Below, in pieces: positions 23,754 to 34,977 of a stretch of DNA of 64,000 bases. How positions within the stretch are numbered: position 1 is the stretch's first letter; each line of letters starts with the position of its first letter. A model generated the notes under the pieces. The model worked only from the letters and a program-made list of their open reading frames with translations. It ran no database searches and was not told the DNA's origin. Both the position numbers and the translations under genes were made by a program. Source of the DNA: Verpa conica (lineage: Eukaryota; Ascomycota; Pezizomycetes; Pezizales; Morchellaceae); contig JAUFSD010000003.1 of assembly GCA_033030425.1 (NCBI GenBank), forward strand, positions 2,232,001 to 2,296,000, given 5' to 3'.

Positions 23754-25859
23754 ATGGCGAAAAAAAACAATTTAGTCCAGCAGCGTGCTGGATTAACCAT
23801 ATTGCAAAAATATGAGCTATGTTGTCTCAGAGCCAAATACCCTACACTAAAACTCTCTGAGTTTGCCGAATTACACGATTGTCCTAAAAGACAAAACGGT
23901 CAAGCTCTTGCTATTTCTAGTCTTTCAAAGCATTTAAAAGACTGGGAAAATATTTCAAAAAACGGTCCACCGGAAGGTAAGCATATAATAATTTAAATCT
24001 TTAATCTTTTCTAATTGTTGTAGGCCCTGATGCCAATAAGCAAAAAACTCGTACTGCACAATATCCACTTATAGAGCATTTTTTAGCTTTATGGATTGCT
24101 GCAGCGGAGAATGCTTGTGTTCCAGTAAGCAATACTGTCATTAAAACACAGACAAAAATTGTTCAGGAAGAATTGAAAAAAGCTGGAGTAGAGTCAGAGG
24201 ACTATGAAAACTTTGAAATGTCTTCAGGTTGGTTGGAGAATTTTAAAAGCCGTTATAGTATTGGGCGTTTGAAGCGGCATGGTCAAGCAGGAGAAATCGA
24301 TATTGAACAACTTCCTTCTATGCGTAAAAAACTAGCTGAACAGCTCGCACCGTTTGCTCCACAAGACCGATATAATTGCGACGAAAGCGGACTACAGTTC
24401 AACTTACAACCCGATTACACCAATGCTTATAAAAGTAAAGGAAAGAAAATCTCCGGTTCAAAAAAACTGAAGCCTCGTATTACCACCTTCCATATCGTCA
24501 ATTCCGATGCCTCCGACAAACGCAAGCTTATTGTTGTTCACCGGTCTAAAACTCCTCATATTTTTAGGCAAGAAAAAATCAATATTGCCAATCTTCCAGT
24601 TACTTACCGGCACAACAAAAAGTCCTGGATGTTAACCGGACTTTGGTATGAGTTTTTACGCAATTTTGATCAAGAAATGCGAATATCTCAACGTTATATT
24701 GCATTGATTACCGATAACTGTCCCACACATCCTCCTCCCGATAAACCACCCAAAAAGTACTCTGGGCCGACACCACCGCAATTAACCAATATCACATTGG
24801 TATATCTCCCGGCAAATACAACAGCTCGTCTTCAACCTCTCGATCAAGGTATTATTGCCTCATTTAAAGCCGCTTATAGACGCCGATATACCGAACAAAT
24901 AGTTGAGTACTTTAACTTAAATGGAAAGGCTCCGGAACCATTAGATATATTGCAAGCTATATATTTGGTCGCTGATGCATGGAATGCTGTTTCGAAGAAA
25001 ACAATTATTAATTGTTGGGCCAAAGCAAATATTTGCGGAGATTCACACCTTGCTATACCATACCAAGAAGCCGATAAATCCGTCAACGCTTATATTCACA
25101 ACCAAATCGCTCCTGCAAAGCAATTGATGGACTATATGCGACCAGCTGGAATAGACAACGATACCGAATATCAGAGAATTATCGATAACTTTTTCTTTTT
25201 TGACAAAGACAATCCAATCGAGAGTTTTGTTGAGTCCGGTAATCTCCCGACAGTAGCAGAAATTGTTCAACAAGGAATCGCTTCAGGACTGTTATCGAAA
25301 AACTTGGATGAACTTAGCGATGCTGATGCAGAAGGAGAAGAAGAAGGAGATATACCTATCGAGAATCCTATTATTTCCCATCATATTGCAATTCACTATT
25401 TAAGTGAACTGACTCGCTACTTTCGCTCTCTCAAAGTTTCCACTTTAACATCAACCGGAGGCCATAAACATTCAATTCCAAGTTTAGTTCAAACCAATAA
25501 TGAACTCCGCACTGCAATTTCACAGTAAGTAAACTCTTTTAATTTATTACTCAATATTAGTTAACAGTTTATTACTTAGTTACCAAAACCATACATCTCG
25601 TACCCACCAATCTAAAATTGATAGTTTTTTCACCAAATACCGGCAGCTCCAGTCAAGTACTCTGCACTCTGAACCTGAATCTGAATCTGAATCTGAACTG
25701 GTTTGCCGGTACAGTATGCATAGTAGTGACTATGAACAGCCTATATATGAGGAGGATATGCAGCCGACTCGGTGGATAAACAAGCAAAACCGGGCTGATA
25801 GTACTGGCAGACTCGAGGGAAATGGTATTAATAATGCCTATAATGTACTTCTAGATTAG
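23754..25859 (+). CDS. Pogo/Tigger-type DDE transposase with PIP box
   Basis: Cut-and-paste transposase, 667 aa from exons 23754-23976, 24024-25524 and 25580-25859, all in phase. An N-terminal helix-turn-helix (residues about 10-70) and a CENP-B-type DNA-binding region (GWLENFKSRYSIGRLKRHG) precede the DDE_1 catalytic domain. Three catalytic aspartates are visible: NCDESGLQF, ITDNCPTH and QPLDQGIIASFK. About 42 residues separate the second and third, longer than usual because of a Pro-rich insert. Exon 3, missed if the ORF is read straight through, carries QSKIDSFF, a perfect PCNA-interacting (PIP) box, then a Glu/Ser repeat (ESESESE). The Drosophila pogo transposase is known to bind PCNA. 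There is no stop or frameshift, so the protein may be active. Confidence 0.93.
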
Positions 25860-32473: not shown

Positions 32474-32633
32474 CAGGTCAATCTTTCTATAAAAATTCGA
32501 GTTATAAGAATATTCGCCTTATAAGGATATGTGACCCGGCCCGGACGGGTTATTTTGTATTCTCATGACAATAACCACTCTATAAGAATGTGATATTGCA
32601 CTAAAAGCATATTCTTATAGGGCGATTTTACTG
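32474..32633. mobile_element. 160-bp pogo-like MITE
   Basis: Ends are CAG...CTG flanked by TA on both sides (32472-32473 and 32634-32635). The termini are imperfect inverted repeats, and the motif YTATAAGRATAT occurs about four times (about 32502, 32519, 32579 forward; 32609 inverted). A GC-rich near-palindrome (near 32533-32550) lies at the centre. The boxes are related to, but different from, those of the 3.1-kb pogo element. Confidence 0.7.
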
Positions 32634-32932
32634 TATATCTTTTTCCAATAGAAGAAGTAGCTTCTTGTGCTCCCTCAGCCCTGTTAAATGATTCGAGCCC
32701 TACAATATATGGTAAATATTGAGCCTTTACTGCTTAAGAGCTTTATAGGGTGATTAATGTTTGACGTTGTGGTACGTACGTGCTCTATTAGGTACTGGTA
32801 ATAGGGTTTGGTCTACATATAGGTATTAATATAATAGGTGGTTTATGGTTTGTGGAGGTTTGTCTTAATCAGGAATACTTCATGTCGCAGATGCTCAGAC
32901 ATAGATTGCCGAGTGAATGACTTCTAGAAAAC
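32634..32932. other. Spacer between MITE and miniature LTR element
   Basis: About 300 nt of AT-rich DNA; nothing supported. Confidence 0.5.
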
Positions 32933-33051
32933 TGTTGAAAGCAGAAAAGTGGATCGGCTAGGACTTGAACCTAGAACCTCCTCATTCCGGGATAGGCGCT
33001 CTAACCATTGAGCCACCGGTCCGTTGGTGAGTGTAGACTTGCTATCCAACA
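32933..33051 (-). repeat. 3' LTR (minus-strand orientation) of the miniature element
   Basis: 119 bp, TGTTG...CAACA, identical by eye to 33157-33275. Confidence 0.88.
32950..33022 (-). tRNA. tRNA-like sequence in LTR, copy 1
   Basis: 73 nt that fold as a cloverleaf: acceptor stem 7 bp with one C-A mismatch, perfect D stem (GCTC/GAGC) and perfect T stem (CTAGG/CCTAG), A box TGGCTCAATGG and B box GGTTCAAGTCC, and a T-run (TTTT) right after. The anticodon arm is faulty (two mismatches, position 33 not T; the nominal anticodon reads CGG). A working tRNA is therefore unlikely, but a Pol III promoter is plausible. Confidence 0.6.
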
Positions 33052-33060
33052 CTCCCCCTC
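33052..33060 (-). promoter_or_regulatory. Polypurine tract of the miniature LTR element
   Basis: GAGGGGGAG on the minus strand, abutting the LTR that starts TGTTG; the usual plus-strand primer position. Confidence 0.75.
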
Positions 33061-33136
33061 AAGCCACACTCGGCAACAGCCTCACTGGGTGACTAGTCTT
33101 GGGGCAAGCTGTTCACTAGACGATATCACATGCTCT

Positions 33137-33156
33137 GCGCTCTCCGGGCTCATAAC
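33137..33156 (-). promoter_or_regulatory. Primer-binding site for half tRNA-iMet
   Basis: Read on the plus strand the segment ends CCGGGCTCATAAC, the anticodon arm of initiator tRNA-Met. Ty5/copia-type elements are known to prime from this internal part of tRNA-iMet. It directly abuts the 5' LTR. Confidence 0.7.
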
Positions 33157-33275
33157 TGTTGAAAGCAGAAAAGTGGATCGGCTAGGACTTGAACCTAGAA
33201 CCTCCTCATTCCGGGATAGGCGCTCTAACCATTGAGCCACCGGTCCGTTGGTGAGTGTAGACTTGCTATCCAACA
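33157..33275 (-). repeat. 5' LTR (minus-strand orientation) of the miniature element
   Basis: 119 bp identical by eye to 32933-33051; followed on the plus strand by the AAAAC duplication. Confidence 0.88.
33174..33246 (-). tRNA. tRNA-like sequence in LTR, copy 2
   Basis: Identical to the copy at 32950-33022, with the same intact A and B boxes and the same degenerate anticodon arm. Confidence 0.6.
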
Positions 33276-33280
33276 AAAAC

Positions 33281-34977
33281 AAGAACCCGTATATTGCCTA
33301 TAACACCGTTAATCAACGGTAATATTGTTTATCTAACCCCTTTGGTACCCGTGCGACCTGAAGCTGAACTAGATACCTGCTTCATGTATTACCGTACCTG
33401 AATATTGTATCCACGTCATTAAGAGGAATGTGGTAATACTTTCCTAGGCGGAGAAATCTTTGGTGACTTTTAGATGTAGCCTAAGAAGACCTCTAATTGG
33501 CATGGAATGGATATACTCTCTTTCGACGTATAAATAATAGAGTAAGTTGACTGGAAGTGCTTTGTAACTGGGTAAAGTCTAGCAAGAGCCCTGTTGCTAG
33601 TCGATATTGTTATTGTTAAGAGATCAAGAGACTGTAGAGACATATATTATCCCTAACACTTTCTCACCTGTGGAGCGTAAACTAGTGTGGTAAAGCTACT
33701 AGGTCTGTACTTTTGAATACAGAGAATACAGGTGGATGTGGGTGTCTAAACACAGAAAGTTTGTATAATATCCGTGTCATGGATTTTCTCAGTCTCCTTT
33801 TCGTATGCAGTATACTCTAGCCACTACTAGCTGAATAAATGCTCAGTCTGGTTTGTCTGCTGTAAATTTTCTGAATAAGAGGCATCTTCTTTTAGATTTT
33901 CTGTGTAAATTTTAATTGATGTAGGCAAACAAAGTACAATCCTATAATTTTGGTGGATGTGGCGCATCATGGGAGAGTGTAGATAATAAAGATATCCAAG
34001 GTGTAGTTGTGAGTGAAGCTTTGGAAATACATGGCATGGCATAGTTAATACCGACCGGTTATAGGTGATGACACGGGCGTCTTTATAGATTTTAAATGTC
34101 TAAGGTGAGCATAATCGTAGCGGCAGGTGCTAAATACGGTAGTTTGGTCTAGGTGCCGTTATTCTATAGTTGACGTTGGGTTAAGGTTTCTTCTAGACTT
34201 GAATGCCAAAGAGATGAGTTTAAAGTAGATGATTAGGAGTTGAGGCGTGTGTATTCATGGCATCTCTATGAGGGATAGTGAGGGGTAGTGGGGATGGTGC
34301 GGATGGTGGGGTGGTGAAGAGGGCTTATAAAGAATAAAGGCTGCTGTTAGGTCACAATCTATTTGCTAGGGTAGTTCCATTCTCAACACCAAAGTTGGCT
34401 CTTGACCATACGTGTCACGATAATCATAATACATGTACGCATACGATCCATCTCTGGTACTTGATAGCCACCTCCGATATCTGATAGCCACCTCTGATAC
34501 CTGATAGCCATCTGATAACCTCCGATAACCTCTGTTATCCATCTCCTCACCTACACACGCACAGCCTCACTCGCGTCTCCGCCCCAATCAACGCGCCATC
34601 ACGTGTGTCATCCCTGGCAATTAAGCCTGCCAGTGACACCACACTGACCATGCAGCCAGTTCCTCATGAGGGTCGAGGAGTCAAGCCAGGATTAGGAGGT
34701 CTACCAAACAAAAAAGAACAGCCCCATTGCCCCATGTCTCTTGTTCCTGGTCCTGGAGTCTGCCCTTCATCCCTTCTCATCCTTTAATAGCATCACTATC
34801 TGCTGTTCTTCTGCTCTGCTCTACGTTGGCTAGAATACTCCTGTTGCTCTCAGTCTCACCTGGATTGGCTGTATCTGTGACGTCGGTTAAAGAACAATCT
34901 CAGAGCCTTGGGACCCTCCATATTTGCCTTCTGACTATACTCTACTCATGTTTTGTACACGTCCCTCTCAAAATACC
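33281..34977. other. Gene-free stretch
   Basis: AT-rich spacer. A degenerate repeat of about 20 nt, TGATAGCCACCTCYGATAYC, runs from about 34455 to 34540 and provides many GATA motifs. Otherwise nothing supported. Confidence 0.55.

Follow-up and report, generated by a model that had tools for sequence, protein, structure and literature searches.

A Helenus-type miniature LTR retrotransposon with tRNA-like terminal repeats in the ascomycete Verpa conica

A 343-bp segment at positions 32933–33275 of a stretch of Verpa conica DNA (contig JAUFSD010000003.1; the window, 64,000 nucleotides long, to which all positions given without a contig handle refer) contains the same tRNA-like sequence twice, once in each of two direct repeats. 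The question raised by this locus is whether it represents tRNA genes, short interspersed elements (SINEs) or a retroelement with a tRNA-like sequence in its terminal repeats and, in the last case, what that sequence might do for the element. Its structure, together with a search of the 45.8 Mb genome (25 contigs), identifies it with near certainty as a complete long terminal repeat (LTR) retrotransposon of the miniature class (terminal-repeat retrotransposon in miniature, TRIM). The interpretation favoured here, with a probability of roughly 0.7, is that of a non-autonomous element of the Helenus type (TRIMp3) that would be transcribed from a start by RNA polymerase III (Pol III), primed by initiator tRNA-Met (iMet) and served by the proteins of Copia elements.

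The two 119-bp LTRs, with TGTTG...CAACA ends, do not differ at any position, as the earlier note on this locus had claimed, and the 5-bp duplication AAAAC that it reported is found on both sides of the element at 32928–32932 and 33276–33280. Its description of a 105-bp interior with a primer-binding site (PBS) and a polypurine tract (PPT) only was likewise correct. The PBS, GTTATGAGCCCGG, occupies 33144–33156, immediately next to the repeat at 33157–33275, and the PPT, GAGGGGGAG, occupies 33052–33060, immediately next to the repeat at 32933–33051. Since the PBS lies at one inner edge and the PPT at the other, the sense of the element is that of the minus strand, a point that the note had not made, with 33157–33275 as the 5′ LTR and 32933–33051 as the 3′ LTR. 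No protein gene is present, the stop-to-stop frames that cross the element being only 71 and 76 amino acids long; with two LTRs and a length of 343 bp, the element falls below the 1000 bp limit used for TRIMs.

Each LTR holds at its positions 30–102 a 73-nucleotide tRNA-like sequence on the minus strand (33174–33246 in the 5′ LTR and 32950–33022 in the 3′ LTR). The Rfam tRNA model RF00005 matches both with 53.2 bits (E = 2.4 × 10−10 over the 1.2 kb searched; cut-off 29), and ARAGORN also finds one tRNA-like sequence per LTR, labelled Ser(GGA). A solo LTR elsewhere in the genome (L002) gives the same Rfam score of 53.2 bits. In the sense orientation an A box, TGGCTCAATGG (33229–33239 in the 5′ LTR and 33005–33015 in the 3′ LTR), which fits the consensus TRGYNNARNNG, is followed by a B box, GTTCAAGTC (33186–33194 and 32962–32970), which fits GWTCRANNC and starts 45 bp from the start of the A box. 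Past the tRNA-like part comes a TTTT run (33169–33172 and 32945–32948). According to a scan for T runs, no other stretch of T in the element reaches four, and none in the interior reaches three. Rfam additionally returned two plus-strand matches to Plastid-ycf2, at 32949–33022 and 33173–33246, scoring 40.2 bits against a cut-off of 65.7; these lie antisense to the tRNA-like part and below the cut-off, and this identity was rejected as a trap for automatic annotation.

The genome search gave 11 places, a number to be taken as a lower bound: the full copy in the window (L001) and ten lone or decayed LTRs. The earlier note had called for such a search and for a count of duplications, regarding their absence from all copies as evidence against a retroelement. 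With copy ends fixed by alignment, perfect 5-bp duplications were found at six of the 11 places (AAAAC at L001, ACGAC at L002, TGGAG at L003, GCCAC at L004, GATAT at L005 and GTATG at L006); four of five bases agree at L007, and no duplication is recognizable at L008–L011. Only 2.4 kb separates L003 from L007, so that their flanks overlap, and apart from these the sole flank match between places is one of 36 bp between L005 and L009. Because there is no other substantial similarity among the flanks, the copies represent separate insertions. That there are ten further LTR places, five of them with perfect duplications and with dissimilar flanks, shows that the element is more than a chance arrangement. 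The LTRs of L004 and L006 used as queries led to no place beyond the 11 of the first search, and the interior matched only itself in the genome at E values up to 1. ARAGORN found no tRNA genes in loci L003–L011 (about 1.5 kb on each side, with a shorter flank where L009 meets the contig end), only the LTR itself at L002 and one spurious intron-bearing call, built from the two LTRs, at L001.

The absence of differences over the 119 bp of the LTR pair dates the window insertion to within about 1.3 million years at an assumed rate of 10−8 substitutions per site per year; an assumed 10−9 would extend this limit to about 13 million years. The solo LTR L002 does not differ from the window LTRs. Among the more divergent copies, L004 and L007 have a variant LTR start in common, and L005 (C13:197507–197622) and L006 (C25:993789–993901) have the same 8-bp deletion in the tRNA-like part together with different duplications; because of these common variants, more than one source copy has probably been mobile. 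The deletion lies in the anticodon/variable region, which suggests that a variant lacking the complete cloverleaf was mobile.

The PBS is the exact complement of 13 nucleotides in the anticodon arm of iMet from the host, for which six genes were found (L076–L081). The first 12 bases of the PBS match the genome 63 times, compared with one match for the reversed pattern and 5.5 expected under uniform composition. In 43 cases the match lies 2.8–4.9 kb upstream, on the same strand, of a Copia reverse transcriptase (RVT_2; profile PF07727, 55 matched stretches); the others comprise two about 10 kb upstream of RVT_2, the six iMet genes, the window TRIM and 11 further sites. Counted from the reverse transcriptases, 45 of the 55 stretches, which span several LTR families, are preceded at up to 12 kb by the exact 12-base PBS; priming by the iMet anticodon arm dominates among the resident Copia elements; some of the ten without it are second fragments of one element. 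Pairs of iMet-type PBSs in opposite orientation and roughly 200–400 bp apart were also observed behind LTR-like sequence at L087/L088 (C20:999340 and 999729) and L091 (C25:297034 and 297252), and are perhaps head-to-head or nested elements.

One of the resident Copia elements, at C4:2120148–2125270, has 242-bp LTRs that are identical over their length, the 5-bp duplication AATAT and a stop-free frame of 1440 amino acids around RVT_2. Like the TRIM, its LTR starts with TGTTGG; the two have 19 of 20 bases in common over the PBS and its extension, and its PPT, GAGGGGAGA before TGTTGGG, is of the same type. Unlike the TRIM, it is 5.1 kb long, has the longer LTRs and encodes the reverse transcriptase frame, and no Rfam tRNA match occurs in the Copia loci L043 and L114. 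From these sequence comparisons it is likely that the TRIM depends on a Copia helper, and plausible that this particular element serves as one. A further locus, L044 (C11:898885), likewise agrees with the TRIM at 19 of 20 bases over the PBS and its extension, with no Copia match within 12 kb, and is possibly another non-autonomous or decayed element.

Replication of LTR elements requires a transcript with repeated ends. In the proposed mechanism, transcription would begin in the 5′ LTR, with the tRNA-like part as promoter, occasionally read through the TTTT of that LTR, cross the interior and stop at the TTTT of the 3′ LTR. If Pol III starts and stops in this way, the tRNA-like unit would itself form the repeated R region, giving a U3 of about 29 nucleotides, an R of about 75–80 and a U5 of about 12. 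Initiator tRNA-Met, probably cleaved in the anticodon loop, would then prime reverse transcription at the PBS, and the proteins of resident Copia elements would copy the TRIM and insert it. The role of the tRNA-like part would be that of a promoter rather than of a tRNA. Such putative Pol III transcription is fairly probable.

Several observations weigh against this mechanism. The helper is assigned by its ends only, and these are not unique, since PPTs of a similar kind (for example GAGGGGAAG before TGTT) occur in further resident Copia families; beyond the ends, the two elements differ in LTR and interior. Downstream of host tRNA genes, the first T run with at least four residues has exactly that length in 27 of 62 ARAGORN calls, exceeds it in another 27 and is missing in eight (read up to 40 nucleotides past the tRNA, or about 20 for 20 short loci, and with one gene counted twice). 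In this host TTTT may therefore be an ordinary terminator, which would make full-length RNA a read-through product. The solo LTRs L003–L007 carry 0.073 substitutions per site in the A box and 0.096 in the B box, against 0.056 over the remainder of the tRNA-like part; the 29 bp that precede this part have 0.083 and the 17 bp that follow it 0.165. Among L001–L007, boxes that fit the strict consensus are confined to the window LTRs and L002. Free decay explains this loss of boxes, so the solo LTRs neither support nor refute a promoter function.

Some of these observations lend weight to the rival that survives best, namely that the element is an ordinary TRIM transcribed by RNA polymerase II (Pol II), with the tRNA-like part as a passenger, an old captured tRNA or SINE fragment without promoter function. 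Boxes no better conserved than their surroundings in the older solo LTRs, a 5′ LTR run that should often halt Pol III and a deletion within the tRNA-like part that recurs in L005 and L006 with differing duplications are all as expected of a passenger. However, the window LTRs and L002 retain strict boxes, in the right order and followed by TTTT, which a long-carried passenger need not do, and the deletion in L005 and L006 leaves both box positions intact. Only 29 nucleotides lie upstream of the tRNA-like part, which leaves scant space for a Pol II promoter, and the boxes are conserved across Helenus families according to the main text of Kojima (2024; PMC10886601). A passenger is therefore considered unlikely, although it is the alternative to be taken most seriously.

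That the element carries a real tRNA gene and provides the host with a functional tRNA is far less credible. The Rfam score above the cut-off in both window LTRs and L002 speaks for it, but the tRNA-like part is not a sound tRNA. In the window copies there are mismatches at pairs 4:69, 30:40 and 31:39; among the distinct copies that have letters on both sides (L002 not being recounted), 31:39 is T–T in all eight and 4:69 is non-standard in all nine. The RNA fold is ordinary (z = −0.27), with 78 of 200 shuffled sequences folding equally well or better. Of the 73-nucleotide cloverleaf described in the earlier note, the sequence, the A box, the B box and the T run in their order thus hold up, and a sound cloverleaf does not. 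Serine tRNAs have a long variable arm, which the host Ser-AGA gene shows and the sequence called Ser(GGA) lacks. The 62 host tRNA calls represent 48 distinct sequences, and the nearest of these, tRNA-Thr-AGT, is only 65% identical. A present-day host tRNA was rejected as the source on this ground, and the capture must be old or from elsewhere.

A pair of SINEs, or a local tandem duplication of an ordinary tRNA gene as the earlier note had considered, would account for a tRNA-like head with boxes that is present twice, but is refuted by the LTR pair where a SINE is a single unit without LTRs that moves by target-primed reverse transcription, by the TG...CA ends, the PBS and PPT at the inner edges, the constant 5-bp duplications at six places, the solo LTRs and the low identity to any host tRNA, and its probability is negligible.

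TRIMs with tRNA-like LTRs have been described from fungi, animals and one plant under the name Helenus (TRIMp3; Kojima, 2024; PMC10886601), so that the statement in the earlier note that a tRNA-derived equivalent was undescribed in a fungus is wrong. The main text of that paper gives 113 fungal families in Pucciniales (rust fungi) and a few in Agaricomycetes, with 5-bp duplications, mainly iMet anticodon-loop priming and Copia as the likely helper. It reports sizes of 311–1263 bp and box motifs TRGCY...YGG and GGTTC, puts forward a Pol III promoter as proposed and unproven, and treats the name as structural, arguing for several origins. The window TRIM agrees with the fungal branch so described in having tRNA-like LTRs with boxes (TGGCTCAATGG and GGTTC in both), only a PBS and PPT inside, 5-bp duplications, a likely Copia helper, solo LTRs and a length within the reported range. 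It also agrees in its iMet anticodon-arm PBS, common to the resident Copia elements, and in a tRNA-like part that, with its disagreeing isotype and broken stems, is not a functional tRNA. It differs in its host, an ascomycete (Pezizales), whereas the fungal hosts listed in that main text are Basidiomycota, and the likeness is one of structure. Two proteins encoded in the window agree with a host in Pezizales. For a Ufd1-like protein (best 120 of 620 matches listed), the highest-ranking named matches are from Rhizina undulata (63%), Tuber aestivum (56%) and T. indicum (55%), followed by Eurotiales and lichen fungi, with Trichophaea hybrida (50%) in their midst. For a Sip5-like protein (best 120 of 1887 listed), they are from Morchella sextelata (72%), Rhizina undulata (55%), Geopyxis (49%), Wilcoxina (56%) and Choiromyces (51%); matches without a species name reach 78% and 84%, respectively. 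The HET domain, with five matches, proved a poor guide to the host group.

Within the same main text there is no occurrence of Ascomyc-, Morchella, Tuber or Pezizo-, and no other ascomycete report of such elements was found among the titles and abstract beginnings listed from an open-access library. What is new here, relative to that text, is the host group, a pezizalean ascomycete, and the candidate helper; the kind of element was already known. Somewhat short of even odds is the further suggestion of a separate lineage of LTR retroelements driven by Pol III in ascomycetes, independent of the basidiomycete ones, that would have arisen by capture of a tRNA or SINE in the LTR of a Copia-type TRIM, with the whole tRNA-like unit as R region and leaky termination at TTTT.

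The likening of the locus to the plant Cassandra TRIMs in the earlier note was apt, in that the LTRs of these also contain a promoter of Pol III type derived from the gene of a small RNA. In Cassandra, which PMC10886601 also describes, this is 5S rRNA and not tRNA, the element is much longer and Pol III transcription has been reported; an Rfam search of 32500–33700 at E values up to 1 gave no 5S match, only tRNA.

No second family of this kind was recognized in the genome. When a B box and an iMet PBS were sought together at a spacing of 10–40 or 41–71 bases, each pattern gave two matches, compared with one for its reversed control, and among these four genome-wide matches the window element is the sole recognizable case. 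The genome tRNA search scored 63 of 1867 candidates, a scope that weaker tRNA-like families could escape. Of the 40 loci around Copia PBS sites and 3′ ends (L043, L044 and L082–L119), 20 were compared with Rfam for tRNA-like sequences and gave no match. Elsewhere in the window, at 24005–25528, an open frame of 507 amino acids has, judged by eye, the look of a pogo/Tigger-type DDE transposase.

As an annotation matter, LTRs such as these are liable to be called tRNA genes. The element also adds Ascomycota to the Basidiomycota as fungal hosts of TRIMs with a putative tRNA-type promoter. The presence in one genome of this TRIM and of a young, apparently intact Copia element with the same primer site offers a compact system for testing if an LTR retroelement can use a Pol III transcript as its genome, as the main text of PMC10886601 proposes for Helenus without demonstrating it.
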